Source: Eonycteris spelaea (lineage: Eukaryota > Chordata > Mammalia > Chiroptera > Pteropodidae). From it: a DNA stretch of 64,000 nucleotides. The stretch is taken from the NCBI GenBank assembly GCA_003508835.1, contig PUFA01000034.1, positions 5,978,501 through 6,042,500 on the forward strand, in the 5' to 3' direction. Below the pieces are notes generated by a model. The model searched no databases, was not told the origin of the DNA, and was given only the letters and a program-made list of their open reading frames with translations. Shown one piece after another: positions 14,338 to 62,033 of this stretch; the stretch's first letter is position 1; every line of letters starts with the position of its first letter. The position numbers and the translations under genes were made by a program.

Positions 14338-14341
14338 TATC

Positions 14342-14408
<67 letters not shown>

Positions 14409-14425: not shown

Positions 14426-14683
14426 TCACCTACCTACCGTTGGGGGCCTTTGCGTTCCATCTCTGACTCCTAGGTAACACGACAAGTTTCCTCCTCGCCT
14501 CTCCCTCCCTCCCGCAGAGTGAAATCTTGTTGTTCCCGGGCCATCCCCGCTTGCTGGCGTCCCCACGCTACCCGCACAGGGACCTGAGTGCAGCGGGTAG
14601 CTCCCGCACGCGCCACGCAGGGGCTCCAGGTGGGGCCGGCGTACCCCGGGACGCGGGATGGGGGTGGCGCCGCCCGCACTCAC

Positions 14684-14784
14684 CTTGCTGGCCGCGGGCG
14701 CCGCCGCCAGCAGCACCAGCGTGAGCAGCAGCAGCAGCAGCAGCGGCGGCGGCACAGGCGGCCTGGCCGCCGTCCGGGGCGCAT
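14684..14784 (-). CDS. COL4A3: Collagen alpha-3(IV), exon 1: start codon and signal peptide (frame broken)
   Basis: On the minus strand a good Kozak context (CACCATGC) places the ATG at 14784-14782, and the exon ends at AGCAAG|GTGAGT, last exon base 14684. One frame of the exon encodes a Leu-rich signal peptide ending LVLLAAAPAASK, identical to the end of the human COL4A3 signal peptide. That frame has no ATG in the exon, and the ATG-to-donor distance is 101 nt, not a multiple of three. From the present ATG the product would instead be Arg/Cys-rich and would lack a hydrophobic core. One base appears to be missing around codon 2, compared with human. The Leu stretch is a CTG run (six tandem codons), a likely slippage site, but that would change by threes. 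Identity is firm; functionality as printed is doubtful. Confidence 0.85.
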
Positions 14785-14879
14785 GGTGGGTGCCGGCTCC
14801 GAGTCCCGCGTGGACCGGGACCCGCGGGCTGTCGGGCTCCCGCGTCCCCTGCGCGGCGCGGGCCGGGGCGTCCAGCTGT

Positions 14880-15512: not shown

Positions 15513-16735
15513 TATGGCGCCCGCGGCCCGGCCTGGGCAGTCACTGTCCTAGGCCCCGAGTCACCTGTCTGGACGGGGGCGGGGGCAAGGGGAGCAGGTG
15601 CAGTGGAGGAAGCATGGCGTCTAAGGTTGGGGCGCGCGGGGACCCGGGGTCACCACAGAGGAACGTGTCTGGCTCCCAGGCGCGTCCGCCTGAGCTTGAA
15701 CGGGGCGCTGTGCGTTTTGATTAATTTGGAGGCTCGGATTACTACCAGCCTGGCAGTCTGGGCACAGCGAAATGCCAAGAGCAAGAGGCAGCTGAGGGGA
15801 AAGAGAATGCCCATCCTATTCTCTGCTGCGTCGAACTGGCTTTTCGAGCGAAATCTGACCTGCGGAAATGCAGGGGATGTCTGTCTCCTGAGAATGCCCT
15901 TCGTGGAGGTGGCCTTGGATGCAAACGTGCATTTAGTTACCTGGCTTGTCAGGACACCCTCTTCAGAGCAGGACTGGTACCCCTTTTTTTTTTGGTGCCA
16001 TTGACCATATTGACTCTGGTGATGCATTTAGGCCCTTCTCAGAATAATGTCATTAAATACATAACATATAATTAAATCAAAATTCAGTTTTACTGGAATA
16101 CAACGATCAAAGTATTAAAGTATTGCTATAGTAACAGACGTGCATCATTAAGATTGCATTAAATACCTAGACCAAACAACCGATCAGTTAAATAACTTTA
16201 ATCTCAGAGTAGTGATGACCGCAAAACTGCGTCGTGACCCGAAAATACCAGTGCGTGCAAGCTCTCAAAAGCTGCCCCGTGCTGTTGTGCTTAGTTGTCC
16301 ATATTCGGAACGGAAGGAAATGCTGACCTTCCAGGAAGGTTTGTGAAACTAGAGATGTAGCTTGTGTTCCCGTCCAAGGTCACAGACCACCTGAATTCAA
16401 TCTCCAGGTTAAGAATCCCTGTTTGGGGGGACATCAGATAGTCGGTCATCAAACACCAGCGTGAAATAAGTGGTTTAGTCATTAATTATGGAGAACCACT
16501 GCTTACAGTTAGAATGGGGTCTTTTAGTACATTAGAGCTATGTAGCACTGTAGGTAGGCAAAACCCTGACAATGAGCTCATGAAGGCACCCCCCCATACC
16601 TTTTTTAGTGGTAGAGTGAATATTATAGTCTTTCCTCTGTTGTATTTTTTGTTTTGTTTTGTTTTTTAAATGCCTGTGACAGGCAAGTCACTTCTGATGC
16701 CACAACAGGGTGGGAGAGAAACTTTTGATGTAAAT

Positions 16736-27279: not shown

Positions 27280-27367
27280 TACGCAGACTGACTGTGCAGT
27301 AAGCCATGCACGTGGAGCTAGTGAGATGCTTTTTTAGGAGGACCAAGCCCCTGGCCACAAATCCCTG
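27280..27367 (+). CDS. COL4A4: COL4A4 exon 2: 5' UTR end, start codon, first part of signal peptide (CDS from 27306)
   Basis: The acceptor TTTTTTCAG ends at 27279 and the donor TG|GTGAGT follows 27367. The reading frame from ATG 27306 gives [20 protein letters not shown] plus the first two bases of Trp. This aligns without gaps to human residues 4-23 (RC-F-R-TK-LAT-P conserved). The ancestral ATG three codons earlier is CAG here, and the next codon is TAA, in frame, so 27306 is the only usable start. Phase at the exit is 2, as in human. Confidence 0.9.
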
Positions 27368-30300
27368 GTGAGTGTCTTCAGAACGGTCACTTGCTTTTAT
27401 CCAATAACGTCTCCTCAATGTTGGTTCTGTAGGGATGAGTTATATTAATACATCATGTGTCAAAAAGCCAATCGTTTTAGAAATATATGCATTATGCCTG
27501 CCATTTTGTGACTCATTTTTAATCATTAAACACCAGTCCTCTCTAGTATCCTTGACTTTCACCCACATAATCACCCAATGGGAAGATGCTCATCTAAAGG
27601 CTGGAGATTCTTGCTCTCTTACTAAGTTGAATAGCAAAATCCTTCCTATATGTCTGGAATAGCAAGTCCCTATAACTAGCAGAGCCATAATGACACACTT
27701 AATGAGTGTTGTAGTCCATGTGACTCCCTCCAAAGATGTCCATGTCATAACCCCTGGACACTGTGATACGTTCTGTTACGAGGCAAGAGGGGATTATGGT
27801 TTCAGATGGAATTAAGATCGCTAAGCAGCTGACTTTTCAGGGGGAGACTGTCCTGGATTATCAGAGTGGGCCCAGCGTCCTTGGAAGCGAAAGAAGGAGG
27901 TAAGACGGTGAGCTTCAGGGAAGCGACATGATGATGGACACGGAGGTCGGGGTGATGCAGCAAGAGAGAGGAGGCTCCACCTGCCATTGCCGGCTTTGAA
28001 GATGGAAGGGAGTGGATGCCAAGGAATGCAGCTTTTGGAATCTGACAAAGGCGGGAAAATGGATTCTCTGGGCACCTCCGGAAGGATCACAGCGCTGCCA
28101 GCACCTTGATTTTCGCCAGTGAGACCCGTTTTGCCCTTGTGACTTCCAGGACCACAGAGAGGACGTTTGTGTTGTTTTCAGCCACTGAGTTTGCGGGGGT
28201 GTGTTACAGCACCGGGAGGAGACTAATACGAGGTGGTTAGAAGAGACTCAAAAAGATGTCGGGAGTTAAGGCCGAGAAGTGTTAACCAGTGAAAAACATG
28301 AGAAGTCTTGAAGCTGATGAACGTGTAACATGGGAAGTGAAGGACCAAGAGGGTGCTGAGAAGGAAATTGTATTCATTTCAGAAATGCAGTCAAGTCTTA
28401 CTTATTTAGCGCGGGCGTGGACGGAACTGCAAAGTAATCTTAATTTTGAATGGTTCTTCGAAGAAGGAAAAACGAATTGTCTTGCTTTTCACTACGTGCG
28501 GCAGCAGGAGGAAGAAGCGGAGGAAGGAAGAAGGAACGGCGACAGGATTCAGACCTGACCCGAGCCCGTGTTGCTCACCTGTGACCTGTTGGGCATCTTC
28601 TCAACATTTCTAAGTCAGTTTTCTCCTGTGTAAAATGTGTAAAAAAGAAAAAAACAAAAGCCGGAACTGCTATACAATGGAATAGATTCCCGTTTCCAGA
28701 TGTCCAAAGCGATAAGGACCCAGTTAACAAACAGTAGCTGTAAATGCTTTCACTTGATTTAAAACAGTTTATTCTCAGTGTCAAAACCCCTTTCACTTTT
28801 TAAATTCCATTTTTTCCCCCTCTCTCTTAATTTAGTTAGTTCCCTGAAATGCTACCCTGGCCTTTATTGGAATTTTCATGAATTCCAGTAGAATTCTAAT
28901 AGCATAGGTCGGGAGGAGAGGAACGGCAGTGTCAAAGGCAGCGAGTGCGGGCCAGCCCCCACCCCTTCCATCTCCTGTCTCCCAGTCAAGGGGATGATAG
29001 CTCTGTGACCTTCTAGAGTGTGCATCAGCGTCTCTGCACAAGAGCAAGGAGCAGAGGGTAGAGAAGGGAGGCTCACCTAGGACCCTGACGTTTCAGAGAG
29101 GAGATGAGGACAGAACAAAGGACAGAGCTGGCAGAGAAATGACAACCCAGGCCGGGCCCCAGTTCTCCTCCCGCCCTTGGGGATGATGTGACCTGAAGCC
29201 CCACCTCCATTGTCACTGTTTTAAGGGTGGATGAGGCAGCTCTTGGACACATGTGAGATGAAGTAAATGCACGCGTGGATGTTAGTGGTTGTCTTCGTTC
29301 CGGCTGCTCTGACCAATACCATGGACTGGGAGGTGTGTTAGCAACGAGCATCTCCCTCTTGCAGTTCTGGAGGGATCTGAGATTAGGGGACCGGCTTGGT
29401 CGGTTCTGGTGAAGGCCCTCTTCCAAGGTGCAGGCTGCTGGCTGCTCGTTGTGTCTTCGCATGGCGGAAAGAGGGTGAGAGAGTTCTCTGGCCCCTTTTG
29501 TTGAGCGCAGGGATCCCATTCAGGAGGGCTCCACCCTCATGACCTAATCACCTCCCCAAAGCTCCACCTCCTAATGCTATCACATTGAGAGGGGGAGGAT
29601 TTCATCGTATGCATTGGTGGGGTGAGGGGGTGGGGGTTGTACAAATATTCAGTCTACACAGCAGTCTCTTTTGGTTGAATCGCTCCTCTGTTAAAATTTA
29701 TTTATAATAACAATGTCACGCCAATGAGATTTTTGTCTCATTTATAAGACCCTGACCTACCTAACTCTTCCCTAACTGGCCGTATTATTACCCTTGCCTC
29801 CCAAACCATCTCCCAGCCCAGTTAAGCTTTCTTCCATCCTCCCTGTTTCCAGTTGGTTCCTTTTAATGGCATCCGGGATACACTGGTCTTCGCACTGTCC
29901 CCAAGCAAAAACTGTCTCTTTCCCTCTCTCCTCTAGTTTTCTTTCCAAGAGTCTCCCTTCACTCATCTACCCAGCCAGGTCTCCCCTTCAGTGCTTCCAT
30001 GATACCGAGCACAATGAGGACCCCATAAAGGGGCGTGAGTACTTTTTGACTGATTGATAAGGGGAAGGGAAAGGTAATAAAGACAGCCAGAGAGAGGGTA
30101 ACATTTATTTGTCACTGATGACAATCAGCTGGTGACAGCAGCCCATTGGACATAAAAAGGAGCTTTCTGGAACTGATTCCTTTGTTCTTTTTCTTTTTGA
30201 TTTGGTTTGCATGAAATGAACAGTTTAAATTAATCGGCATTTTTGCTTTTTTCTAGGTTGTTTATATTTATTCTCTTTTCTGTACAACATGTATATGGGG

Positions 30301-33300: not shown

Positions 33301-36300
33301 GGAGCTGCCGTCAGCACCACTCACGCGCAGAGCCCATTTCACTGCAGGGCATCACGGACGCTGTTTGTCATCAAGGGATCTGCTTATGGAAAGTTACTCT
33401 GGGAATGTACTTGTGTCTTAAAGTGACTGATGACTCCAGATAGAGATAATGAGGAGGATTTAAGAAGGGGAGACTAATTTTCCCCAAAGGGCACGTGTGT
33501 GCGTGCACACGTGCGTGTGTATGTGTGGATATATAGATACATACATACATATATCTGTGTTAGTCTCCTTGTCTCAGATTCAAAGGTAAAAGTATGCTGT
33601 GGAATTCTCATGAGTTAGGTAAACCAAGACTGCTTGTTAGCGATGTGTTAATCATTTACCCCGCTGAGGGATGAGTATGGTGTACTGAATCAGATGCTTC
33701 ACTTTCCAGAGTGGGAAGAAGTTCATTGGCCTTTGCGGAGGAAGAGATTGCTCTGTTTGCCAGTGCTTTCCTGAAAAGGGGTCTCGGGTAAGTGACTGGA
33801 AAGTCGCCCTGGATATTGGGGGGAGGGGCATTGGGGAGCTTCAGTCGAGAGAGAGAAGTTCTAGAGATTGTCTGTACTACATCCCACGGACAGCAGCAGC
33901 AATGTATCATTGCCTTAAAAATTTGTTGAGGGGGTTAATTAACCTCATGTAACGTGTTCTTACCATAAGAAAAAATTTAAAAAATCAACGTGGACAGATA
34001 CTGAATTTTGAGCCATTGTGATTATTTAACATTAAGTGGTTCCAGATTCTTAACATGTTCTGAGAGTCGGCAATGTTTATATCTTTCGTAATCAAAATTC
34101 TATACATTCCGATATGCAATACCAATTATATCAGACTGTGTGTCGGGCTTAGAAGATAGTCACTCAATGTTTTACAACACTTGTGTTGAGAATTGCCTTA
34201 TGTAGAAAGGGTCCCAGTGTTAAGTGCCACATACTGGGCTGCCATCTTGACATTCATGTTGCACATCAGCATTTTAAAGGCTCTGAGAAGTACTGCAATG
34301 GGTAAAAAAATAAAATAAAATAAAGGCCTGTTTAACTTTGTTTAAAGCATTGTTTCCAGACATTAGACCACAAGCATCTTTTTTTAGATAATACCCATTC
34401 AAATCCTGTGGAATAGTTCTATAATTGAAGCAATAGGTGCTTTTCTTATGTGCTTCGGATATTGCAAGACATTTATAGACCTGAGAAAGTGATCGCCCTG
34501 GTAAATCTAGTACCCATCTGCCACCCTACATAGTTATTATGATATTATTCACCGTATCCTTGTGACTATTTTTATAACTGATAATTTATACTCATGATAT
34601 AGTTTAAAAACGAATGACACAAATCAGGAAGTCCTGGGGATGTGGTGTACAGTGTGGTATCTATAGTAAATATCACTCTACATTGGGTTGCTAACGGACT
34701 AATCTTAAAAGTTCTCATTGCAAGAAAAAGATTGGTAGCTATGTGTGGTGATGGATGTCAGCTAGATTTATCACGGTGATCCTTTTGCAATGTATACATG
34801 TATCAAATCATGTTGTAGAACTGAAAGTAATATTATATGTCAATTATATCTCAATAATTTTACTTAAAAGCAGGGATACTAAAAACTAGTAATCTAAGAA
34901 ATGTTTTGGCCTTTTCTATGTAAATATCTACATTATTTAGGGAATTAAAAAGCCCGGCTTTTGTGTGAGGTTGTTAATATGAACATGTTAAGATTGTATA
35001 GGTAAAAAATAAAAGTCAGTGCATATAAAATTTAAGACCTATTGAGATTGACACCCAAGAAAATGGGATTGATCAGCTGAGTGGCAGGAAGGGAATGAAT
35101 GGGCATCCCACAAGACGGGAAGAGTTGCTCGGGTAAGACCAGCTTGCTGTGGTCCTCAGACTTAAATGAGGCCGAGAAAATTGTTTTAGTGGGGACATTT
35201 GGTGATGTCTAGAGACATTTTTTGGTTGTCACCACTGGGTGGAGGAGGGCGCTACTGGTTCTAGTGGGTGGTGGCCAGGGATGCTGCTCAGTATCCCTCA
35301 AGGCATAGGACAGTCCCCATAGCAAAGACTTGCTGAGGTCCCAAACCTACAACAGCTCCGTGAGGCCACTATGATGATTATTTCCCTCTAGCAATACCCG
35401 GTGCCAAAAATCCAAGCGTTTTAAATAACTGGCTGGTATGTGGAAGAAACAGGAAGTCCGCGCGGGTATCCGGCTTCCATCCCGGCCTGTGCCCCGGGAC
35501 CAATGGGAAGATGCTACGCTGCTGTTCCAAGACCGGTTTTAGTCATAACGTTGTGAACTTAGGCGGGCACTTCAATCTGTGCAAGGCTCAGTTTCCTCAT
35601 ATTTACACCATTGGTCCCTTCTCTTCGGTTTCCTCGGGCCGCGCAACAATCACAAGCCATCGCAGGCGCAGAGGGTGTGTTTGTGTCCCCTGCACAGTCT
35701 CCAGCCCGTGGGTGAGGAGGGCCAGGGAGGGGCTGCACTCTGCTGTCTGCGCGCCCGTTTCTGGGTGGTCAGGGAGAGCAGTGTGTGGAGCGCCCGTCAA
35801 CCTCTGCCCTTTCCAAGACAGATGGGTCCCCCGTGAAGGCTGCAAGTGGACGTTGCCGGTGACATTTTCCAGCTGGGAATTTGGGAGTGTGGAATTTATG
35901 CATAGCTGGGAGGTGGTTTGGGAGGCGGGCGCTCCAAGTCCTCGGCAGCCAGCCGACTCCCATGCCATCTCTTGAGCCACTGTGACAGCTCGAGGTGGAC
36001 TATAAAAATAAGAAAACACCGAATTCCAGAGGGCTGAGCATCCACTGGAGGCGGCACAGCCCACGGGGGCATAGGCAGGCACTCTTAAGAAAGAAATCAT
36101 ATGTACTCTCTTATGGCTTAATGCCTGAGTGAGTAAGTAGTATGTTTAGGCTCCAGATCAAAACTGCTGTGTCTAAGCAGTTGTTGGGGAGCCAGGCCTC
36201 CCATGGAATGACCGAGGTGAGGGTTTCAGCTGGATTTTGAAGCTGGATGTGTCTCAGGCCGGAGCCAAGGGCGGCTCCTTCGAAGCCAGCAGAATGCAGT

Positions 36301-47700: not shown

Positions 47701-50700
47701 CTTTTCAAAACTGATTTGCTATGACTATTTTTCAGAAAAGTCTTTCTATTTCCCTAATTGAATATCATTTCCCAAGATTCCTTGTAAAAGATTTTCTTGT
47801 CATCACTACCAGAGTCATCTTGATTTCTTCTGAGTTTTCCTTTTGCTCCAGATCCTAGCGGAGCTGATCTGAACATAGAACTGAAAGGGAATTTTCATAC
47901 GCACACGTTTCTCGTGGCATCAAATAGGAAAAACAACCAGCTTTCGTTAGTGAGCTCCCCAGCCATCCTTTGTTTTCAAAACTCAGCCATGGGAAGGGCC
48001 AAGTGCAGTCTGGTGAGTGCACATTTCTTAAGATCTCCCAATGGGGTCAAACCTCATTCTGCTGAGTGTCTGTGAATGTTTAAGAGGGCAAAGGTCCCCG
48101 GCTGTAGATTTAACACAGCGTGCGGTGCTGACCACGGTACTGAAGTTCATCATTGTGGGTTCTGCGAGGCAGCTTTCTTTCCTTTGACTCATTTCATGTA
48201 TAAGCAGACCCCTCCCCCCCTTTGCATAATAGTGGGGGACCTTCAGAAAGATCACTCAAGCTGGAACCATACCAACAAGGTTAACAAATGATGAGAAAAA
48301 TCACTGTTGTCCTGTGTCCTTCACAATATTTTATTAAACGTTAAAAACTCTCTTACTGTTAGCTATGAATATATAGGGAATGCTTTTATAAACGAATATT
48401 TATTTGGTACATTGTAATTTAAAACATTATACACATCGAGAATTAGAGTGTTTCATTTCCTTGTAAAAACTTATCAAGACTGGTTTGACAAGGCTCGCCT
48501 TCTTCTCGTCATGTCACTTATAATATGAAGCAAACGTGTTTTGTGTGCTTTGGTGAATTGTCGTACTCTTTCTAAGTTTGGATTAGTCTCCCGTATTCTG
48601 AAATAGATCTAAGAATTGCTTGAACATGAAATTCTTGTGCCTGTGCCACTTCCTCTGACACATCTTCATCCTTTTCGTCACAACCACTCTCCTTTCCTAA
48701 GGTGAGTGAGTTAGTCTTCACCAAGTCCCTCAGGCTCGCGTGACCGAGGTGTCGATATTCCCACACATCAGTTATTTCTTTTATAGCTCTATTTACATTC
48801 TGCTTGATTTTCCTTCCAGTGTTATTTTTCATTTCCTCACTTCACTTTGACCTTCGCTGGTCAATTCCCTCTTTCAATGATTTGTTCTTACGAAATGTCA
48901 TTTGGATTGATCACTGTGAAATAAAGGGACAACACAACTACACACTTTGCTCTGTGTGTGTGCGTGTGCGTGAGTGCGTGTGTGTGGTGTGTGTGTGTGT
49001 GTGTGGTGTGTACTGGGAGATATGCAGTGACCAGTCACAGACAGACTTTGTGAACAATGATGTAATTCAGCCAGTGCTCATGAGCGATCGTGGTCCCATG
49101 AGCTAACAGTGACATTTTTACTTTGTGCGGTTACTCAGTTAATACAGTGGTAACTGAAGTCGAACCTTTTGTTAACAGAACTGGTGCTATTTTCCTTAAC
49201 TGTGGAACTGAAATCATGCATATTGCAACTGTGCAAAGCAAGACCCCCTGTGTAGGCGAATCGATTTCTCAAGGAAACCGCTGATGTAATTTATCATTAA
49301 ACTTAGTATCCCCGTTGGAAGCAAAGTCAGGTGTTCTTTTGCATGTTCTTTGTAGGAACTTGATATACAGAAATGGTTAAAATCATTTTTATGTGGTAAC
49401 CCAGTTAAAATATATTAATATATTAAGTAGAATAGTAAGATATTAAGTAGGAGAACTTTGGGAGAAAATAATACATTGAGTATTTCACTCACTTAAAAAA
49501 ATACACCAAGTAAACTTGCAGCTACATACAAAAATCTTCCAAAAGAAACACTAATTTTAAGTTAATATTCGAAAGATGCTTAGATTCTCTTTTAAATACA
49601 AATATTGAAATGGATAAACTATTTCTAGGGCATATTATTAACTGACAACTGCAAAATTATTTACTTCTAAGAATAATACATGTTTTATGAATAAAACATG
49701 CATTATGTTTTGAAAACAAAATGCAATTTTCCTGCTAAATAATTGATACTAGTAACATATTAGTATATGTTACATATAACCTACATAAATATGTATTACA
49801 TATTTATAATATGTTTATATGTATATAAATACAAATATATTAGTAAATATTCTGCCTTTGGATATTTCTTAATAGATTTTAACTGAATATTGAGTGACTG
49901 TAAGAGAACCTTAGGATGATGATAATAATAATAATAAAAGGAATAAAGAAATCTCTTCTAGTGAAACATGACCATAAATGATAATTTTATTAGTGTTTAA
50001 TACTTTACATAGGAAAGAAAATATTGAAATAGCGATATAATTTTTTCTTTTCTTAACTGAATATTTTATTTTCAGGGCCTTCCTGGAGAAAATGGAGAAA
50101 AAGGAAATTCAGTGTTCATTTTCCGTGCCGTTAAAGGTGTCCAGGTAAGCATGATCGCGGTGAGTTTAAAATTTTTTTTTCCACTTAGGTAAAGCCATGC
50201 AGGAAACATGTAGACTGAGATTTTTTGAAACATCCCTGAGCACAATGTTTTTTGTTTTTGTTTTTGTTTTTGCTTTTCATCATTACTCTCACCCTCCGGG
50301 ATGGCACTGTACTTCCTGTGTGAAGGCACATGGCTTTGGTTACTCTGGCTATAAAATTCCAGTACCTCCCAACTATTCTTGCAGAATTGCAGCAGATTTT
50401 TGGGGGTTTCTCAACCTTGGTACTGTTGACATTTGGAGCCAGATGATTATTTGGGCGAGGGCTGACCTGTGCATTGTAGACATTAAATAGTATCTCTGGC
50501 CTCTGCCCAGTAGATGCCAGTAATATCCTCCTCGCCCCAGCATATACACAGTATCTCCAAACATTACCAAATGTCCCCCAGGAAGAAAAATTACCCTCAT
50601 TTGAGAAGTACTGATTTATTTGTAGTCAAAATTTAATAGTAATACTTGCATTCCAGTATAATAGAAATCACCATTATTAAATTTGAAAATTATGGGAACC

Positions 50701-53700
50701 TTATCGCACTGTCCTTGGCAAATTAAATGCTCCTCTGTTTTAGCAGAGAATGATATACGAATATTCAGAAATAAACTGATGATCACCTCGTCTCTCTAAT
50801 ATGAGTAGCCATGGAGGAGCAGAAGTAGATCACTCGCTATGCAAAATCAAGAGGCGAGACAGAGGACATTTTCAAGTTGTGGTCATTTGTCTTAAGGAAG
50901 ACTATTCTACAACAATGAGATAAAAGTAGTTCTAGATTCTTCTACTAGACCCCGAGTTCCATGCTACCTGGAGTGGTGATGCCTTTCGTGAGCTCACACT
51001 TTTTGTTTGTGGCCTCTGTGCCCATTCGTACTTGTGAAACAGCAAAAACCATGCTTTTGCTTATGACTTGAATGGCATATTAGTAAACTAAGCATCAAAG
51101 CAAGGTCATTTTAGGGACCCACATGCTGTGTTGGAAGGAGTGAACTGACCCTTGCTACTACCGTGACTTTCAGCAACCCCCTTACGCTCTCTGAACCTCA
51201 TGTTTGTTATTTCTGAAAGAAAATTCAAATGACACCTACCCTACCTGCCTCTCAGCATTCATGATCTGTTATAATTTATATAACAGCGTATTATCAATTA
51301 TAATCTACTGCACAATACTAGTTATGGCGAGTATTTTTTTTTTGTCATTGTGCAGGAAAGGATGGGTGAATAAAAGGGGCAATGGATATCGAGAATTTAT
51401 CATCTTAAAGAGAAACGGAAGATTAATAAGCTTAGAGAAACAACAGTCTTGAGAGTCTACAGCCACTTCACGCACATTCAGTTGGTTATTACTGAAAGAA
51501 AAAAAACAAAACAGAAAATAAGGGTTGACAATTATGTGGAGAAATTGGAATACTTGGGTTGCTGGTGGGAATGTAAATGGTTCAGCTGCTGTAGAAGATG
51601 GTATGGTGATTCCTCAAAAAATTAAATGTAGAATTAGCCTATAATCCAGCTATTCTGCTTTGGGATGTATTTCCAAAAGAAATGAAGCAGGGACTCAAAC
51701 AGATATTTTGTACACCTATGTTCATGGAAGCATTATTTGCAAAAGCCAAAAGGTGGAAGGAACCCAACTGTCTACTGATGGATGAGTGGATAAACAGAAA
51801 GTGGTTTATATAGACAATGGAATGTTATTTAGTCTTAAAAAGGAAGGGAATTCTGACAACATGAATGAATCCTGAAGTTCTTATGCTAAGTGAAATAAGC
51901 TAGTCACAAAAGGACAAATAATGTGTGATTCCATTTATAGGAGGTCCCTGGAGTACTCAGATTCATAGAGAGAGCAAGCTTCTGGAATGGTGGTTGACAG
52001 GGGCTGGGAGAGGGCAATGGGTAGTTAGTATTTAGTGGGTACAGAGTTCACATTTGTGGGGGACAGGAAGGTTCTGGAGGTGGAAGGTGGTGATGTTTGC
52101 ACGATAGTGTGTATATAGTTAGTGCCACGGAACTGTACACTTAAAAATAGTTAAAAGGTAAACTTTTACATATATTTTACAATATTTTACATTTTTTTTA
52201 AAAAAAGCTTGTATTCAAGAGAATGTACATCCTTTGCTTCTTTAAAATAGGTTGTCTTGAGGCAGAGTCACAAAGCAGCAGATTGGCACAGAAGCAGATG
52301 GGAGAGAATTTCCACTCAAATTCCCTTTGCATCTACTCTGGGGTCATAAAAGGAGCAAGATGTCTACAAACGGAGGCAGGGCGAGGCCACTGGACCAGCG
52401 GCAGTTTAGCTGTGATTCAATGGGACTATCGAATTGAGAATTTAGAACATTTTAAACTGAAAGATGAAATCGTGTCTTGATTCCAGCTGCTCACTACTGC
52501 AGCCTCTTTCTCTGGTTTCAGCTGAGTAGAAGCAGAATTTGCACCTAAGATGGAGGTTGAATTTGCACCTAAGATAGAACCTTCCACGGTTGTCTTTTCA
52601 ACACTGAAAAATTGAACAGACTGTACATTAGACAGCTCAAATAATTCCCATGTGTTCCTACTTTTATGTCGTGTGTTTTAGGAAATGGGGTTGCTCTTCT
52701 AAACCAGTGTGTCGTTCGTTATTACTGCAGGGTGACAGAGGGGACCCAGGACCTCCTGGCTTACCAGTAAGTCTCCTGAATGGGCATGTGCTTCTGTTTG
52801 CTCCCAAATAGCTCATGGTCCCCACTGGTCTCTATCCCATCAGGACCAGCTGCAAAATTTGCAGGGTCCACCCAATGTGAAAAACTTCCAAAGAAACCAC
52901 AGTATAGGTCCCTTGTTCCAAAATTAAGAATGTCAAGACAGTGACAGCAGAACATTAAGTCAAGCGTGAAGCCTTATGTGACTGCATGGGTCTCACACCC
53001 ATGAAGCCATCCTTGAGTCTTGGCAAGCTTTTGATGACCTTGCTTTTCTATCTTTTAGTGATCGTTTGGTATTGCTCAGGTGTGTGGGGTCACTTAATAT
53101 TTAGGAAGTTAAGTCTGCTTAGAAACCGTGTAAATAATATACGTCAAGTAGAAATAATTTTGCTCTAGACCGTTCTGCCTACTGAATCAGTCATCATGTG
53201 TTAAATTTAATATTTTGCCCCATCCTCATCTCTGAACTTTGTAATTCAGTGATTCAATTAGTATTTTCAATTAATCAATGTTCGTAAGATTAACATTGAA
53301 AGCTATTTGCCTCCCAATGTTAACCTGCCATTTCGCTTGGTAACTTCGTCTGTAGACAGGATTTACTTACCTAGGTTGGTTTCCTTAGTACTTCTGAAGC
53401 TCAGGTCTACATAATCATGAGATACCTCGGTGGCACTGTTATGATAAATATCATTTGGTCCTCCAGGAGAGGACATTGCACACTCACAAGTCATTTGACC
53501 TGGGCAGGGCCAGCAGGAGAACAGAGTGCCTCTCTCCACACTTCCAGGAATGCCCAGCTGTAACCAGTCCTTGTGAATCTGTGTGTAAATTCATGTTGCA
53601 AAAATTACATGTTGCAGAAATTTGTTTATGACTGAATCATCTCGACCTTGAATCGGGGACCATATTCTTATCCATGTTGATCTGATAGGACACGTTTAAA

Positions 53701-56700
53701 AAATGTATTTTAGTATAAATACATCATATTTTAATATTAATTAACTTTAATTAATATTAATATTAATATTTTTTAAGCATCCTGATGTATATCGAAGTTA
53801 AAACACAGGTGAGATTTAGGAGTAGCTAGTAACAAGTTTTCTCTGTTCTCTACTTTTGTATCACAAGATTTGTTTATAAACAAGTAGATTGATTGCTGGG
53901 TCTTAATTTAATCCTAACATAGGACTTTGTCACACTTGCCAAAGTGCTGCTGTCATGTGACTATGCCCTAAGGCCATGCCAGAGCTGCTCCAATAGGCAG
54001 ATGGGCCCAGAACTGTGACTTCTTTGGAGGTTTATCCGCCTGGGATTACATACAGTTCTTGCTGTGAATAGTGACTATGGCTTTTCTTTTTTTGTGTGTG
54101 TGTAACAAATGCACTTATTTTTCTCATGCTTAGGGACTGAGGGGTTCGAGAGGACCTGCAGGCCCAGTGGGACATCCAGGAGAGCCGGGGTTAGCAGTAA
54201 GTACAGCGCTGCTCATTCTGACCCTCTACAAACCAGACCTGACATTTAAATACAATAAAAAAGGCCCTCTCAGGCCAGGCACAGGTGGGCTCTTTGTGAG
54301 ATTATCAGCCGATGAATCAGGGCACACCTGCCGTTACCAGTGTGCGTCCATCTGGAGCACAAATGCCCCTGGATAACAAGCAGCACACCGTGCTCAGAAG
54401 TCCATCAGGGGTGTTTTAAAATCAGGGGTTTCCTAAGAGGAACCTGAGACAAACAACAAAGACACGTTGTGATTTCTATGACTGATGTGTGATTTGTTTC
54501 CACTGTTGGTTTAGGGACCTCCCGGCCACCGTGGGAGTCCAGGTTTGAAGGTAGGCAGCCATGAGTAAGATGCACAAATCGAGCCCAGGTACAATGAGAT
54601 AAGTGACCACTGTTACTTGTTAGAGTGATTTCTTTCCTCTCCTTAGACTTCCTAAAGTATTCAATAAATAAACTTGAACAAATTTCTTAACCAGAAGTCT
54701 TGCTTGTAATCACTTGTTTAGTATTCAAAAGTAATTAGATTTCTTTATTTTTTTTCTGTTTCCAGGGTAATCCTGGTGTGGGAGTAAAGGGGCAAATGGG
54801 AGACCCGGTAAGAATTTACTTTTTCACAGAGGAGCAGATGCTTAAATGTATGTGCTGCCGGCTTGCAGAGGCTGTGTTCTGATGATCACTTAACTGCATT
54901 CATTATCTAGTTGCTACCCAATTGTATGGCCAAGAAATTTTCTTTGCTGAATTTTTATGGCACCATTACCCTTGACTCTAAAATGACTGTTCTGACAAAA
55001 ATGTAACACTAAATTCAAGTTAATTTATCTGGCATACTTCACCCTGACAAGAAGAGTTAGAATACCTGATAATTTTTCTGATGATATATCCGGAGTAGCA
55101 AATTTGTTTAATTACTGATTCGTTTGGTTTGATTTCACGACTTCATCAAAATCTCCAACTCGCACGTAAATAAAAACATAAATAACTGGAACCAAAAGCG
55201 TGTAGCAACACACAATCTCCCTCTCTCGGTCCTTTCGGCTGAAGCAGGAAATTTAGCAAGGGCAAGCTTTAGAAAGGTGTTTCAAGATGGCCGCTCTCCT
55301 GGAACCAATCTGAATGGCTTACAGGTGGTGAGTGGCTCTTTCAGTGACTGTGAGCAAATCGTTCAAAACATATGGCACCTACTCTGTGCCAGACTAGGAA
55401 TGGCACTGGCTAGGGGAGTTTAGCAGGACAGACCCGATCTCTTCTCTCATGAAGTCCCACTGTGGTTGGGTAAGTTATGGCACAGCCATTTAACGGAAGG
55501 ACAAAGTTGCCAAAAATATACTGGACGATGTCACGATGTGAGGAAATGCTTACACGATTATGCTGATCAGAAAGCACAGGTTACAAAAGTATAAGTTCGA
55601 CTTGGTAAAAATTCAACAAAGTACATTAACATATACACTTGGAGCCGGCTATTTCTCCCTCGACACCATTGATAATGCATAATCGTTCAGAGCCGTTCTG
55701 TGTTATGCTCTGTTTAGCAACATCCTTGACCTCTACCCACTATATGCCAGTAACATCCCTTCTCCTTAGTCATGACAAACCTAAGATGCACCAAAACCTT
55801 GCCAGATGTCCCGGGGGAGAGTGTGTCCAATTCACCTTGAAGAACAACTAACTTAGAGAAAAGATTGAAAGAAAATAGACTGAAACAATGTTTTCCAAAC
55901 TCGGGAAGTCATGGGCCCCTCGAATATGTTTGTCAAAGTGCAGGAAGCCCACACACACCTGCTTGAGAACCCCCCACTCTGTGGAGTGAGGCAAGCATTG
56001 CCAGCTTAGTGACCTCAGCACCAACGCAATCAGGGGCAGTTGCAAACTTGGACCGTAGAACAAAGTGGAAATATTTGGCTATGACCCCAAATAGGCTTAT
56101 TTTAATTATTTTGGATTGTTGGATGAATAAAAACATAGTTTTGAAATTTCAACGCAGAACTCTGAAATACTCAAGAACATGTTCGCCCACCCCATTTTCA
56201 GAAACATGCCCTAACTGGCTGTTACTGATTTTTCCTAGGTGATGTGATTATGGATCATTGACATTTTATTCTGCATAACTTTTTTGTACATTTGACCAAT
56301 ATGAATAAATGGTACTTTTGCAATATGGAAAAATAGTAACATGACCAATATTTTGAAGAAGCTCCTTGCTTGTCAGCCTCTTTAGGTTTTTTAGGCTTAT
56401 TCTAGCTATGAGAATAAATATGGTTATCTTTACCGATACATGTTACCCATTTATTTGTATATTGTTTATGCATTTGTTCAATTGTCTATTCACACAACAG
56501 AAAGCTATAGAGCAGCTACTACGCCCACACTGTGTTAGGTGCCAGGGGACAGCAAAGGAAAAATGTTCCTAACTTCCTGCTGCTTCTGTAGTTTCTCAAG
56601 TTTAGGTAGGACTAAAATTATTGGTTGTATTTTTTTTCATTTAAACTTAAAACAATACTCTTCTTCCTCAAAACCCACTTATCAAAAACATTAGCAGTTT

Positions 56701-59700
56701 TAATAATGATATATTTGAGAGTTTTCTTTGTCCCACTCAATGTAGTAAATAGTAAGCATTTTATGGACATTATCTATTCCACAAAAGAATACTTTGATGT
56801 AGGCAGTATTATAATCCCCATTTCACAGAGAAGTAAAATGAGAGTTAAGGGAATTAAGGAAACTAGGGATAGGAGAGATTTTAAGGAAATTGCCCCAAAT
56901 GACACAGTCAGTAAAGGCCTAGTTTGTGGACACAGGTGACCTGCTCTATCACTTGCTCTTAACTGTGACACAAGAGGGAAGATAATTCTAAGTGCAGAAT
57001 AAGAGAATGACTCAGAAAAGTACAAAATAACCATCTTCTAATTAATAGTAAGAATTTATGGTTATATTATGGCAAGCCCAATTCAAGAAAATCTTTTTTG
57101 CCAAAAGAATAACATCTGTAATGACATAAATGAAAACTTTTGGCTAATTATTTTATAGCGAGTTTAAAAATATTATTGAAAATAAATTAGAAATGACTTA
57201 AATCTAACCACAATGGAAGGACTTAATAAATGATAGTATATTCTTATTAAAGATTATTATATAGGTACTAAAAATCAGGTTTTTGAATAATTTCTGATAT
57301 AACAGGAAAATGTGCAAAAAATAGTATTATAATAAATATTTAAAAATTTTAAAGTTTTAATAAAATGTAAAAATATAAACTATATTGTATGTTTAAATTA
57401 TGTTTGTATATTTTATATACTACTATTCTCATAATATATTTTAAATTGTGTTTTACACATCATTTGGGCACATATACATGTGATTATGCAAATACATGTA
57501 TATTTACACACATACACGTGTGCATACACACACATAGTATATACTATGTGTATATATACAAATAAGATATATACAAATAGTATGTACTGTTTGTATATAC
57601 ACACACACACATCAACACAGCTCACACACGCCACAGAGAACTATATAGCAAAGTTTCAGTGGAGATTATCTCTGGATTGTAGGATTATGGATCACTTTTA
57701 TTTTTAAAATTTATTTTTAACCATAAGTGTGTATTGTTTATGCAAAACAATAATTATTTAAAATTATATAATTTATTTGCCATGATTTTACCTTTAAACC
57801 CACACACACAGGATTGTAAGCATTATATCACAATAAATAGGGAGAAACCTTCTTTATTTCAAATTTTATTTCAAAATAAAATTAATATGAAATTCTTATT
57901 ATCTTGATTTTTTTTTTAAAGGGTGAGGTTGGCCAGCAAGGTTCTCCTGGACCCACCTCCTGGTACAGCCACCCGATTTCTGTCTCTATAAAGGAGAAAA
58001 GGTAATTTCCAAACCATATGTTACTTTGGTAAAGTAGTAAAGGCCCGTGCCACTTGAGCAGGTTCACTGCCGGTGAAGTACCGAGCACCTCCACGCATCA
58101 CGGCATTAACCCCCAAGCGACCCTAACAGAGTGACACCGTTATTGACCCCACTGTGCAGAGCTGAAAACTGAGGCTTGGAAGGGTTACCAGAATCCTCCA
58201 TGCACCCAGCTGCTGAGTTCCAGACCTAGCTTGGACGACTAAATTGTGACATGCCTTTCCGCGTAGAGTGCTCCATTAATCTTGCCTTCGGTGTGTGGGC
58301 TGAATAGACCCCTGGAAGTCCGGTTGTCCTTTATATGTTACAAATGGTCCTTTATATGTTACATAGCGGTTGGAAATTTTGATAATGGATAAGGTAACCA
58401 TTGCGTAGAACTGGGCACGTGATCGACGATGGGCAAAGATCAATTCCTCTGTCAGTCTGCAGTACTGATGTTACCGATGCCACAGGCGGGTTCTGGTGTC
58501 GATTTTCGATTACTCGATTAAATTTCACTAATTTGCTCAAAATGACACTCCTCTCAATGGCTGCATTCCCAGCTTGTGTCTGCTGCCCTGGCTCCATGGC
58601 CGTCCCCCACTGCACCCCACGGTGCTACATGTCTCACAGAGAACTGACCCGAGTAATGTCAAGTTTGTAAGTGAGCTTGGATCTCAGTTGCTAATTAGCG
58701 AAGCTGAAGAGTAACCTCTTACTTAAAAAATTAGTAGAATGATTGTTGAACAAGGTAATTTCTGAAAGAGATCGAAATCAGTATGCTAAATAAGAATGAT
58801 AAGCCAGATTATACATCTTGTGATTTTTAGGGTGTAAAGGGGTTGCCTGGAGTGATCGGACCTCCAGGACCACCAGGACCCAAGGTAATTTATTAAAGTA
58901 CCTTTTTATATTTGTATGCTGTACTATCTTAATTTTTAAAATTTTGCACAGTCTTTATCATTGTTTTAAATGCTAATATATGTTACTAGAAGTTTTCACT
59001 ATTTTATCATAATAGTGATAATATGATAGAATATTATAGACACCCTGTAGGGTGTCTATTCTAAAGTAGTTGATTTCTTGAAACTGCTGACCATAATTTT
59101 CATTTCTCCTTTTGTTTTATTCTCTTTTGCTGCAGTATTGTTCCTTAACCATTCTAAATGTTGCCATCTTTTTCAGGGAGAACCTGGAGTTGGGGCAAAA
59201 GGAGAGAAGGGTATTCCTGGGTTCCCAGGCCCTCGGGTAAGGATTATTCACGCTGTCCGTGAGTTTGGAGGCATTTCTCTCTCATATTTTTATAAAATCA
59301 GATCAATATTCCAGAGAGCTGAAAAGTAGGATTATCTCAACTAAGAACAATACATTTTGACACCAAGAATTGCGTAATAGCTAAATGTCTCAGAACACCC
59401 CTTCCGTTGACATCATTTAGATAAAACAGGCAAGTGGAAGATGGAAGAATTGGCAGGAAGTAACAAGATCGTGGCATTGCCTGCCTGGCTCAGTGTTAGT
59501 GTGATAGCAGCTTGGAATTGATCATGTAAACCCAGTTGATAAAAGAATGAACCAATCTAAAAGAAAAACACTGAATCAGGCCTCACACATCACCATCCAT
59601 GTCACTAATGGGATCCCCATTCATAGAGTCAGTGTGGAAACCAGATCCCAACATGCACAGACATTGAGTTTATTTGGCTCTAGGTTTAGGACTTAATGGT

Positions 59701-62033
59701 TCAACATTGGTTTCCATAGTTATTTTCGATTGTTGATAACGCATAGAGCAACTATTAATCTCCAGACAAATTATACTGTAATCATTCCAAAGATATTTAG
59801 CCCAGTATAAGCGCAAAGTTAAATAAACTAAAAAGGAAGAACAACAATAAAAATATGTTCGTAATTTAAAGCACTGGCAAGGACATGAATTTTTTTTTTT
59901 TTAATAAGACTAACGATCAATGACAATAGTAATGTTATAAAGCAATGGACTCTATTTTATATTTATTTCCTTTTATTCAGCTATCTTTGCAAATAAGATT
60001 AAACATTTATGGCGAAGTCTCGGAAGGTAAAACATGATCCTCGACCTGCGTTTCAATATAATTCTGTGTTGATTTTTGTGAATTTAATAGGGCGACCCTG
60101 GCTCCCACGGATCTCCAGGTTTTCCGGGATTAAAGGTAAATGTACACCATTGTGGAGATGATAAATGCGTTTTCATGTGTAAATGCAGGCCAGTGTCATT
60201 CAGAAATTGTGCCAGTGCACGCACACACGCACACACGCACACGCACACACAGTCATTAGAGACGCGTCCATTTTATGAATTACATAATTTCGCTGTGGGT
60301 ACAAGAACTAAAGCACAACACGGTGCAGGCCAAAGGCGGTGGTAAGAGTTTGCAGAGAATCTCAGTGAGCACGTGCCGATGTGTCATTCAAATTAAACGA
60401 GAATGAGGTAATTTGATACCCAATCACATTTTTTTATAAAAGGCATGTTTCTGGTTATTTGTAGGGGGAGCCAGGAGTGTTTGGAGATCCCGGGCCGTTT
60501 GGATTTCTTGGCCCAAAGGTAAAAAAGTGAGCATATTTGTCTGATAAAATTCTCCGTCCCTCATGTTATTTATTTTTTAAAGTATTTCAGAAGATGATTC
60601 AAAAAATGTAACTTTTGAAAGAGACAGAGTTAATTTTGTACATATTATTTTTATTGCATGTGGTAATAATTGCATTTTACTTTTGAACAATGATCCTTTT
60701 GAAGGTGAATAATAATGAAAGTTTAAAAACTTCATAGGGATCATATAGTATCATGATTTAAAACAGGAGCCGTGGGCCACGGGCCATGGGATGCCTTCTG
60801 CTCTCACCACCATAACATGTTTTTCTTTCCTTTGTAACATCTGTGACCTGACATTCAGCACTTGCTCAGGGCAAGCCTTGGTGGCATTAAGGGGACACAA
60901 TTAAGGGGGACAGTAATTGCTGGTGAAACAAACTGTAGATACAGATCTTGTAGGTGAATGAAATATTTGTTCTAGAGTGCCAAGTTAGCCGTTAATACTC
61001 ATTGTATACCTACAAACCTTCATGGCTTCAGAGATATCTAATTTATGAATAAAGAATCATTTTATTGGAGTTAAAAACACTTTTTTTTTTTTTGGGAAAA
61101 CTGTGCCAGTTGGTTGTTTACTTCTGCTCATAGGTAGGAAGTCAGAAGCCTTTGTTCTTCCTAGATGTTTATAAACCATTCATTTCTCCATTCAGCCCAT
61201 AATCTCTATTTCTTATGTACATGTGCTCTTGGTCCTGCTAATATTTATTTAATGCCAGACGACATGAGAAAAATGTTCATATCTCTAAGAGAAGTGAATG
61301 AACGAATGATTTCAGGGGGATTCCGGAGACCGCGGGTACCCGGGGCCGCCAGGACTTGTGGCAACTCCACCTCTTCCACTCAGAGGTTTGTGCGTCACTT
61401 TGTTCCTACGTTAATTATTCGCAGCTGGCATTGGAGTGGCCTTGGCGGGGGAGCCTGGCCCAGCATGTCCACAGTTGGCACACTGGGCGGGTTAAATATC
61501 TGAACTTCAGCATGAATACATCATGATGCAGCACCGGGAGAGAGATGCAGGTCGCTGTGTCTCTATCAGTGCAAGGCATCAAATTTCATCTTAGTATGTA
61601 CACTGCATGCTGGGGTTTTTATTATGTCACCTTTCAGAAAGTAGGCTTTTTAGTTGTTGAAATATGTGTAAAACCATTTGACCAAGACCTACCAAGATGC
61701 CGCCTGTAAGAAAGAGTGGCCTACATCAATGACAAAGACAGCAGCACCCAAAGTTCATGTGTCTGCAGAGGCGAGGCGGTCGAAGGGGCTCGCATCCAAG
61801 ATATAACATTTATGATGCAGTGAGAAACTGCAAAACAGTCTCCTAGTTGGACTTTAAAAAGTAATGGTGTGTGGGTTTTAACATGTAGATATATGTTTAT
61901 TATATTCACATGTCATTATTTTTGGCAGGTCCTCCGGGAGATCCAGGCCTCCCTGGACGCTACGGAGAAATGGGGGCCGTTGGACCCCCCGGTCCCCCTG
62001 GTCCTGCAGGTAGACCAGGGGAAGCCTGTGCAG
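27306..62033 (+). CDS. COL4A4: Collagen alpha-4(IV) chain, 5' part of coding sequence (spliced, 18 coding exons; continues beyond window)
   Basis: COL4A4 encodes a secreted basement-membrane collagen chain that trimerises with alpha-3(IV) and alpha-5(IV). Joined exons give a short signal peptide, a 7S region with the cysteine pattern [11 protein letters not shown], and then interrupted Gly-X-Y helix. Residue identity with human COL4A4 is high throughout (for example [15 protein letters not shown] and [14 protein letters not shown] are identical), which excludes other type IV chains. Exon sizes agree with human as I remember them (62+43+78+135+45+117+69+36+63+36+42 and onward), except that exon 2 is three codons shorter at the start and exon 13 is 80 instead of 81 nt. 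As printed, the exon 13 lesion truncates the chain at about residue 250. The remaining helix and the NC1 domain lie to the right of the window. Confidence 0.93.
27718..28242 (+). repeat. ERVL-MaLR-type solo LTR
   Basis: Order of landmarks: 'catgtcataacccctggaca' at the start, 'cctggattatcagagtgggc', 'tccggaaggatcacagcgct', 'gccagcaccttgattttcgc', 'ttttcagccactgagtttgc' and 'ggaggagactaatacga' at the end. This is the layout of mammalian MaLR-type solo LTRs. An old element with no internal viral genes. Confidence 0.7.
29285..29672 (-). repeat. ERVL-MaLR-type solo LTR, reversed
   Basis: It begins 'gtcttcgttccggctgctctgacc', then 'ttgcagttctggagggatct', 'ctcgttgtgtcttcgcatgg', 'cctcatgacctaatcacctc' and 'ctcctaatgctatcacattg'. 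This is the reverse of the 27.7-kb LTR type, ending with 'tacaaatattcagtctaca'. Confidence 0.7.
30257..30299 (+). CDS. COL4A4: COL4A4 exon 3: hydrophobic core of signal peptide
   Basis: Acceptor TTTTCTAG ends at 30256; donor GG|GTAAGT. The first G completes Trp, then [14 protein letters not shown] in frame, nearly the human segment. It supplies the hydrophobic core and the end of the signal peptide. Length 43 nt, exit phase 0. Confidence 0.93.
31325..31870 (+). repeat. L1/HAL1 3' fragment
   Basis: 'tctatcaataaggggtgatt', 'agaagttacagtactttgtt', 'gtgaaaacagcaaggtacat' and 'cctctagatgagggcatggg' follow the 3' portion of old L1/HAL1 elements, with a TG microsatellite-like insert typical of them. 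Confidence 0.65.
32589..32660. repeat. (TTTA)n microsatellite, interrupted
   Basis: About 15 TTTA/TTA units with several interruptions ('ttcattatta'). Confidence 0.9.
33710..33787 (+). CDS. COL4A4: COL4A4 exon 4: 7S domain cysteine cluster
   Basis: Acceptor TTTCCAG ends at 33709; donor CGG|GTAAGT. It encodes 26 residues starting [19 protein letters not shown] and ending FPEKGSR. The four cysteines of the 7S region, which cross-link four molecules at their N termini, are all present at the human spacing. Differences from human are conservative except Pro to Leu just before the first Cys. Phase 0 on both sides. Confidence 0.96.
34590..34865 (+). repeat. L1 3' end (L1MA/MB-like)
   Basis: 'gtggtgatggatgtcagcta', 'atttatcacggtgatccttt', 'gcaatgtatacatgtatcaa', 'atcatgttgtagaactgaaa' and 'gtcaattatatctcaataat' are the standard 3' UTR end of middle-aged mammalian L1s. 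Confidence 0.85.
35173..35350 (-). repeat. hAT-type MITE
   Basis: 'ggggacatttggtgatgtct', 'agagacattttttggttgtc', 'tggccagggatgctgctcag' and 'caaggcataggacagtcccc'. The same family occurs reversed at 50.4 and 55.7 kb. Confidence 0.75.
39805..40265 (-). repeat. MaLR-like LTR, reversed
   Basis: 'cctaaggctgttgtaactaa', 'cttggtggcttaaaacaaca' and 'gaaatgtgttttctcataag' at the start, with 'catgactccatcttctgccg' and 'tctgtgtccctccggtcagg' further on: the reversed MaLR-type order, diverged. Confidence 0.6.
41600..41712 (+). repeat. MIR fragment
   Basis: 'gctgggttcggatctctgtt', 'gaggtcacttgcttcatctc' and 'taagcctcagctttg' follow the MIR core on the plus strand. Confidence 0.6.
41714..41742. repeat. 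(GT)n microsatellite
   Basis: About 14 GT dinucleotides without interruption. Confidence 0.95.
42247..42315. repeat. Poly-A / GAAAA purine tract
   Basis: An A-rich run with G every 4-6 bases, about 69 bases of pure purine. It looks like a decayed poly(A) tail; I could not identify the element it would belong to. Confidence 0.9.
45018..45152 (+). CDS. COL4A4: COL4A4 exon 5: start of the triple helix
   Basis: Acceptor TTCTTAG ends at 45017; donor AAG|GTACGC. 45 codons, 15 uninterrupted Gly-X-Y triplets from [19 protein letters not shown] to GDKGDK, matching human over its length. Phase 0 on both sides. Confidence 0.97.
45153..45919 (+). other. COL4A4: COL4A4 intron 5
   Basis: 767 bp, AT-rich. 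Fragment near 45330-45600 resembles a degraded reversed L1 3' piece; otherwise nothing I can name. Confidence 0.85.
45920..45964 (+). CDS. COL4A4: COL4A4 exon 6: helix
   Basis: 15 codons, [15 protein letters not shown], identical to human. Acceptor ATTTTAG, donor CCT|GTAAGT. Phase 0. Confidence 0.96.
45965..46611 (+). other. COL4A4: COL4A4 intron 6
   Basis: 647 bp of unique AT-rich sequence; I see no repeat or signal beyond the splice sites. Confidence 0.85.
46612..46728 (+). CDS. COL4A4: COL4A4 exon 7: helix
   Basis: 39 codons, [19 protein letters not shown] then [20 protein letters not shown], 13 perfect triplets. Acceptor TTTCCCACAG, donor CCA|GTAAGA. Contains NGS, a potential N-glycosylation sequon also present in human. 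Phase 0. Confidence 0.96.
47085..47462 (-). repeat. Old LTR-like repeat, family uncertain
   Basis: 'cattcagggttcactgcaca', 'tttaatacagagaacggagc', 'ctcagcttctcactcccaca' and the end 'gaggtctaggaaatgtag' have the layout of old reversed mammalian ERV LTRs that end near 'gggaaatgtag'. No internal region. Confidence 0.4.
48953..49011. repeat. GT-rich microsatellite
   Basis: Imperfect (GT)n with interspersed GC and GA steps over about 59 bases. Confidence 0.9.
50076..50144 (+). CDS. COL4A4: COL4A4 exon 8: helix with an interruption
   Basis: 23 codons: [10 protein letters not shown], then the interruption [10 protein letters not shown], then GVQ. The human exon has the same interruption (NSVFILGAVK). 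Such breaks give type IV collagen its flexibility. Acceptor ATTTTCAG, donor CAG|GTAAGC, phase 0. Confidence 0.96.
50405..50617 (+). repeat. hAT-type MITE
   Basis: 'tttctcaaccttggtactgt', 'tgacctgtgcattgtagaca', 'tggcctctgcccagtagatg' and 'caaatgtcccccaggaagaa' match the 35.2- and 55.7-kb copies. Confidence 0.8.
51500..52200 (+). repeat. L1 3' end
   Basis: Full run of L1 3' landmarks: 'ggttgctggtgggaatgtaa', 'ttccaaaagaaatgaagcag', 'atggaagcattatttgcaaa', 'gatgagtggataaacagaaa', 'ttatgctaagtgaaataagc', 'gtggttgacaggggctggga', 'gtacacttaaaaatagttaa'. Same orientation as COL4A4; no coding capacity. Confidence 0.9.
52731..52766 (+). CDS. COL4A4: COL4A4 exon 9: helix
   Basis: 12 codons, [12 protein letters not shown]; human has GDRGDPGLPGLP. 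Acceptor TTACTGCAG, donor CCA|GTAAGT, phase 0. Confidence 0.95.
52767..54133 (+). other. COL4A4: COL4A4 intron 9
   Basis: 1.37 kb, AT-rich, including a TAATATTAA-rich stretch at 53.72-53.77 kb. No repeat family recognised. Confidence 0.85.
54134..54196 (+). CDS. COL4A4: COL4A4 exon 10: helix
   Basis: 21 codons: [19 protein letters not shown] then LA. Human differs in a few X/Y positions. Acceptor ATGCTTAG, donor GCA|GTAAGT, phase 0. Confidence 0.95.
54197..54514 (+). other. COL4A4: COL4A4 intron 10
   Basis: 318 bp, no distinctive content. Confidence 0.85.
54515..54550 (+). CDS. COL4A4: COL4A4 exon 11: helix
   Basis: 12 codons, [12 protein letters not shown]. Acceptor TTGGTTTAG, donor AAG|GTAGGC, phase 0. 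Confidence 0.94.
54766..54807 (+). CDS. COL4A4: COL4A4 exon 12: helix with short interruption
   Basis: 14 codons, [14 protein letters not shown], identical to human, including the one-residue-short GVG break. Acceptor TGTTTCCAG, donor CCG|GTAAGA, phase 0. Confidence 0.96.
55690..55862 (+). repeat. hAT-type MITE, 5'-truncated
   Basis: 'agcaacatccttgacctcta', 'cccactatatgccagtaaca' and 'gccagatgtcccgggggaga' match the other two copies of this family in the window. Confidence 0.65.
56720..56885 (-). repeat. MIR SINE
   Basis: 'gtaagcattttatggacatt', 'tttgatgtaggcagtattat' and 'atccccatttcacagagaag' are the antisense MIR landmarks. Confidence 0.75.
57180..57720 (+). repeat. L1/HAL1-like fragment with CA/TA microsatellite
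   Basis: 'aaatctaaccacaatggaag', 'tacttaataaatgatagtat' and a late 'ggattgtaggattatggatc' stretch suggest an old L1/HAL1 3' end that carries a CA/TA-rich expansion at 57490-57620. Confidence 0.5.
57922..58001 (+). CDS. COL4A4: COL4A4 exon 13: helix plus interruption, 1-nt frameshift
   Basis: The acceptor AAAG ends at 57921 and the donor AAAAG|GTAATT follows 58001. The exon starts [12 protein letters not shown] in phase 0, as in human, and its last 18 bases read LYKGEK in the frame exon 14 needs. Exon 14 starts in phase 0, but this exon is 80 nt, one short of the expected 81. The missing base lies between 57958 and 57983, in the segment encoding the interruption. As printed the frame after Thr reads [16 protein letters not shown] and meets TAA at 58835-58837 after splicing. 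The acceptor is also weak (A at -3). Exon identity is firm; whether the deletion is real or an assembly error cannot be told from this sequence. Confidence 0.92.
58002..58830 (+). other. COL4A4: COL4A4 intron 13
   Basis: It contains a reversed MIR (about 58085-58215) and a 21-bp tandem duplication (unit containing 'gtcctttatatgttaca', copies at 58326 and 58347). The rest is unremarkable. Confidence 0.85.
58085..58215 (-). repeat. MIR SINE
   Basis: 'gacaccgttattgaccccac' followed by 'tgcagagctgaaaactgagg' and 'cttggaagggttacc' are the antisense MIR core. Confidence 0.65.
58831..58884 (+). CDS. COL4A4: COL4A4 exon 14: helix
   Basis: 18 codons in phase 0, [18 protein letters not shown]; human has GIKGIPGMVGLPGPPGRK. 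Acceptor GATTTTTAG, donor AAG|GTAATT. Because of the exon 13 lesion it would be entered in the wrong frame and stop at 58835-58837. Confidence 0.95.
59177..59236 (+). CDS. COL4A4: COL4A4 exon 15: helix
   Basis: 20 codons, [20 protein letters not shown], nearly identical to human. Acceptor TTTTTCAG, donor CGG|GTAAGG, phase 0. Confidence 0.96.
59237..60090 (+). other. COL4A4: COL4A4 intron 15
   Basis: 854 bp without a recognised repeat apart from a short T run at 59.89 kb. Confidence 0.85.
60091..60135 (+). CDS. COL4A4: COL4A4 exon 16: helix
   Basis: 15 codons, [15 protein letters not shown]. Acceptor TTTAATAG, donor AAG|GTAAAT, phase 0. Human has [15 protein letters not shown]. Confidence 0.96.
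60136..60464 (+). other. COL4A4: COL4A4 intron 16
   Basis: 329 bp with a CA/CG-alternating tract at about 60217-60250. Confidence 0.85.
60465..60518 (+). CDS. COL4A4: COL4A4 exon 17: helix
   Basis: 18 codons, [18 protein letters not shown]. Acceptor ATTTGTAG, donor AAG|GTAAAA, phase 0. Human has GELGLVGDPGLFGLIGPK. Confidence 0.95.
60519..61315 (+). other. COL4A4: COL4A4 intron 17
   Basis: 797 bp of unique sequence with a T run at 61.08 kb. Nothing else recognised. Confidence 0.85.
61316..61385 (+). CDS. COL4A4: COL4A4 exon 18: helix and interruption
   Basis: 70 nt: [13 protein letters not shown], then the interruption [10 protein letters not shown], plus one base of Gly. Human carries GVLVTPPLPLK at this point. 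Acceptor ATTTCAG; donor G|GTTTGT, which lacks the purine at +3 and the A at +4, so it is weak. Exit phase 1, as in human. Confidence 0.93.
61386..61928 (+). other. COL4A4: COL4A4 intron 18
   Basis: 543 bp, no recognised repeat. Confidence 0.85.
61929..62033 (+). CDS. COL4A4: COL4A4 exon 19: helix
   Basis: Acceptor TTTGGCAG; donor G|GTATGA. Two bases complete Gly, then [27 protein letters not shown] and RPGEACA, then one base of Gly. The CysAla end matches human (RPGEACAG). Length 105 nt, phase 1 in and out. Confidence 0.96.

Follow-up and report, generated by a model that had tools for sequence, protein, structure and literature searches.

A missing base in COL4A4 exon 13 of Eonycteris spelaea, most likely an error of the assembly consensus

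Is the COL4A4 gene of the bat Eonycteris spelaea broken in exon 13, or is the break confined to its assembled sequence? The question arose from a first-pass annotation of a stretch of 64,000 nucleotides (hereafter the window; contig PUFA01000034.1 of assembly GCA_003508835.1, positions 5,978,501 to 6,042,500, forward strand), which had noticed the loss of one base and left three readings for it, an assembly indel, a carrier allele or genuine decay. Our analysis indicates that the missing base is very probably an uncorrected deletion in the assembly consensus and that the animal most likely has an intact COL4A4; the base at 57958 is judged by association.

The COL4A4 locus and the frame break in exon 13

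Coding exons were placed with an in-house splice-aware protein-to-DNA aligner, using as reference the human alpha-4(IV) chain. The aligner takes GT or GC donors and AG acceptors only, and the loss of a splice site is not demonstrable by it alone. The window was found to hold COL4A4 exons 2 to 19 (27306-62033, + strand), and 17 of these 18 coding exons were aligned without a shift.

27306..27367, + strand: COL4A4 exon 2, coding part from the ATG, start of the signal peptide (alignment)
30257..30299, + strand: COL4A4 exon 3 (alignment)
33710..33787, + strand: COL4A4 exon 4, 7S region (alignment)
45018-45152, 45920-45964, 46612-46728 and 50076-50144, + strand: COL4A4 exons 5 to 8, unshifted (alignment)
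52731-52766, 54134-54196, 54515-54550 and 54766-54807, + strand: COL4A4 exons 9 to 12, unshifted (alignment)
57922..58001, + strand: COL4A4 exon 13, 80 nt, entered in phase 0, a multiple of three minus one base (spliced alignment)
57958..57959, + strand: single frame break in exon 13, placed by alignment
58831..58884, + strand: COL4A4 exon 14, unshifted (alignment)
58835..58837, + strand: TAA stop of the shifted frame, in exon 14, with 270 residues before it (sequence)
59177-59236, 60091-60135, 60465-60518, 61316-61385 and 61929-62033, + strand: COL4A4 exons 15 to 19, unshifted (alignment)

Exon 13 is 81 nt long in human and mouse. Its 80 nt here lie between clear splice sites (taaag before GGTGAG on the acceptor side, GAAAAG before gtaatt on the donor side), and phase 0 is required on both sides, by exon 12 and by exon 14. 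The opening 12 codons of exon 13 give GEVGQQGSPGPT while the 3' end of the exon, ..LVQPPDFCLYKGEK, lies in another frame, so that the spliced alignment bore out the earlier description of this exon, of the phases around it and of one base gone between two frames. The stop at which the spliced frame ends was likewise recovered; the truncated chain, given before as about 250 residues, comes to 270 when counted from the ATG at 27306. Long homopolymers are the most typical sites of error, and the lost base lies outside any of them, which counts against a consensus error.

At the other end of the gene, an in-frame TAA (27300-27302) was observed in exon 2 beside the site that corresponds to the human start codon, a site that is not an ATG here and that we take to map to the region 27300-27308. 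COL4A4 probably starts at the ATG at 27306. The position of the start differs between human and mouse, and its alteration in this exon is probably harmless.

The window represents an ordinary mammalian locus in which COL4A3 and COL4A4 lie head to head. Orthology of COL4A4 is indicated by the 7S region, the Gly-X-Y exons and a conserved NC1 domain, as well as by its surroundings, a head-to-head arrangement with COL4A3 across a GC-rich stretch at 14-16 kb (GC 0.644 at 14001-16000) and RHBDD1 and IRS1 downstream. Protein searches with the mouse alpha-4 chain listed, for the most part, collagen VII and other collagens together with one fish alpha-4-like protein, and mammalian COL4A4 was absent among the matches considered (the best 120 of 4371, the best 20 and the best 26).

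The window also carries a 5S rRNA-like element, nearly full-length and ending in an A-rich tail (3020-3138, - strand; Rfam 5S_rRNA, 102.6 bits). Megabats have 5S-derived MEG SINEs, described in up to 23,000 copies in Rousettus genomes (PMC7547651). Comparison of the window with SINE consensuses returned four MIR pieces only, and no match was obtained with those of Alu, CanSINE, ERE, VES, B1, B2 and ID or with bovine, cetacean, pig, rabbit, tree-shrew, armadillo and afrotherian SINEs. This outcome, with the 5S-like element as a putative MEG SINE, hints at a fruit bat as the source. Elements repeated within the window were sought by two methods and none was detected (0 self-hits).

Frame shifts along COL4A4, in COL4A3 and in unrelated genes

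On the same contig, 200 kb downstream of the window were analysed and residues 343-1690 of the human chain were aligned. The gene ends 57.6 kb past the window with a complete NC1 domain. Six more shifts were met on the way in the alignment, at human residues 412, 699, 743, 1061, 1333 and 1403, five of them codons one base short and one a codon two bases short. The protein is otherwise well kept: 312 of 384 aligned residues in the window and 1118 of 1342 beyond it are identical to the human chain (about 60 codons being common to both counts), and stop codons on the aligned path number zero in the window exons and beyond. Human glycines are retained at 110 of 114 positions in the window and at 360 of 366 beyond. 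By our reading of the alignments, nine of the ten that are not retained do not lead a Gly-X-Y triplet, and the sole replacement of a triplet-leading glycine, by cysteine, is at human residue 701 beside the shift at 699; mouse presumably has cysteine at this residue too. In all, 47 coding exons were placed (18 in the window and 29 beyond) by the aligner with its GT or GC donors and AG acceptors. Since human COL4A4 has 48 exons, the first of them non-coding, this is the full set expected.

The partner gene in the window carries a lesion of its own, which the first-pass annotation had not mentioned.

14684..14784, - strand: COL4A3 exon 1, coding part, with its ATG (14784-14782) displaced by one base from the frame of the signal peptide

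The signal peptide encoded by this exon ends in LLAAAPAASK, directly followed by gtgagt. The only ATG near it (14784) stands 101 nt from the exon end, one base off the frame of ..PPPLLLLLLLTLVLLAAAPAASK; a search of 700 nt gave one other ATG, in frame with the signal peptide and 648 nt upstream. COL4A3 exon 1 is thus a second frame lesion in the window, and we read its start-codon lesion as another assembly error. A search of 44.9 kb, of which 30 kb lie upstream of the window, did not recover COL4A3 exon 2. Two short lesions in partner genes may mean either joint decay or error-rich sequence, and genes outside the window were therefore examined.

IRS1, a single-exon gene, lies on the same contig about 200 kb past the window (6242351-6246350). 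Its alignment showed 1031 of 1233 residues identical to the human protein and six shifts, with 0 stops on the path, in a stretch containing 312 N; at one of the six, at residue 42, the aligner read extra bases. RHBDD1, between COL4A4 and IRS1, has three shifts in 948 coding nt. Shifts were thus present in all four genes examined on this contig, and amount to 17 in about 9.8 kb, or about 1.7 per coding kb (seven in COL4A4, six in IRS1, three in RHBDD1 and one in COL4A3 exon 1). The aligner read 16 of the 17 as missing bases.

Potassium-channel genes of the KCNA family were aligned at 3 of the 14 loci returned by the search, and 2 of the 3 were shifted. KCNA2 is a very conserved single-exon gene. 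The match of its apparent orthologue, on contig C63, is split (residues 209-499 at 99% identity and residues 125-222 at 88%), and the alignment placed a codon two bases short at residue 210. A KCNA paralogue on contig C7 has a shift near residue 51, in conserved sequence, and two further shifts, of less certainty, at residues 10 and 202; at the third locus a shift lay only within a run of N and was left out of the count. Less certain as well, by their position in poorly conserved places, are the shift at RHBDD1 residue 239 and perhaps those at IRS1 residues 42 and 803. Because both KCNA2 and its paralogue are shifted, the fault extends beyond one contig.

Gene decay, an individual allele, a second copy or a consensus error

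Taken together, lesions of one type recur at comparable density across unrelated genes and across contigs. An assembly indel is strongly supported, since lesions of this kind affect all four genes of the contig and potassium-channel genes elsewhere. Genuine decay is not supported. That the COL4A3/COL4A4 pair is decaying or lost in this lineage would be in keeping with shifts in both partner genes, and loss has a precedent in amphibians, which are without both COL4A3 and COL4A4 (PMC12141075), but the COL4A4 path is free of stops, nearly all its glycines are retained, and the unrelated IRS1, RHBDD1, KCNA2 and KCNA paralogue are shifted as well. In a neutral simulation, about one in four random substitutions placed in the exons of the window proved disabling, and true decay should therefore leave point lesions beside the indels. 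From about 0.01 substitutions per site onward, zero disabling changes became less than 5% likely, which would bound the age of the lesion were it real; the bound is moot because the assembly is error-rich. Seven indels gathered by COL4A4 through neutral drift would bring many substitutions with them, and the pattern is unlike gene decay. A pseudogene would be recognised by in-frame stops and lost obligate glycines alongside its indels, in a genome whose unrelated constrained genes are intact, and neither was seen. Decay or loss of the pair in the manner of amphibians is accordingly regarded as highly improbable. The alpha-3/4/5 collagen IV network is thought to be needed in the mammalian kidney filter, and we hold it just as improbable that, against the error-rich background, a few shifts in COL4A3 and COL4A4 are genuine and mark a mammal that very recently lost this network or is losing it. 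The titles and abstract openings listed from the literature gave no account of a mammal that has lost COL4A4. COL4A4 is described in PMC5643096 as accelerated in subterranean mammals, without lesions, and the exon 13 dealt with in PMC8977549 is that of COL4A3, not of COL4A4.

Truncating COL4A4 alleles exist in people, and the sequenced animal could carry a real one-base deletion, heterozygous or otherwise individual and like that of an Alport-spectrum carrier, on top of an error-rich assembly. Its transcripts would then meet the early stop and be degraded; skipping of the symmetric exon 13 would keep the frame. Splicing leaves room for this, as the analysis of splice-site combinations showed that skipping of exon 13 keeps the COL4A4 frame open and the glycine register intact, and that seven alternative combinations around the exon are likewise open. 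The best-scoring of them yields an exon of 6 nt (57922-57927); the second-best uses an inner acceptor at 57969, whose score of 0.5, from an approximate matrix, is under those of 16 of the 17 normal acceptors. Yet the window holds 1,194 coding bases of COL4A4, for which a rate of about 1.7 per kb predicts roughly two assembly shifts; one was observed, so that no special cause is needed. A carrier allele is thus very unlikely, and the question of rescue by splicing is moot in an assembly shown to be error-rich. That the window might be a duplicated, pseudogenised copy of a locus intact elsewhere is extremely improbable: nothing was found in its favour, the 80-nt exon matches the whole assembly (1.96 Gb, 3802 contigs) only once, and the locus is flanked by COL4A3 exon 1 and, on the other side, by RHBDD1 and IRS1.

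The preferred reading, an error of the consensus, would find its cause in an insufficiently polished long-read assembly, among whose errors the exon 13 base would presumably be counted. Q30 corresponds to one error per kilobase, and the observed rate of shifts is close to it. Vertebrate CLR assemblies have been placed at Q30-35 before polishing, with mostly short indels and frameshift errors (PMC8081667), and in small genomes long-read error correction cut apparent pseudogenes from 23.3 to 5.6% (PMC12007338).

Consequences and comparison with known systems

Read as a consensus error, the frameshift of exon 13 is of no biological import and is not a real feature of the gene. It is unsafe to claim gene loss, a carrier allele or disease from frameshifts in the present assembly, since about one to two bases are missing per coding kb even in conserved genes. 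A cheap test, to be made before any such claim, is to check in the same assembly a handful of unrelated genes with a single exon.

The sequence resembles the unpolished long-read assemblies described in PMC8081667 and PMC12007338 in its short runs of missing bases across unrelated genes whose proteins are otherwise conserved, the present assembly being a putative case of the same kind. The amphibian loss concerns the same gene pair, deleted outright in the account of PMC12141075, whereas here the whole of COL4A4 is present, its protein sequence conserved, and COL4A3 exon 1 is in place. With COL4A4 as known from human, the gene shares the order of its exons, the phase-0, glycine-first exons of the window part, the 7S and NC1 regions and the interruption peptide of exon 13, and it differs by seven apparent shifts that we take as errors.
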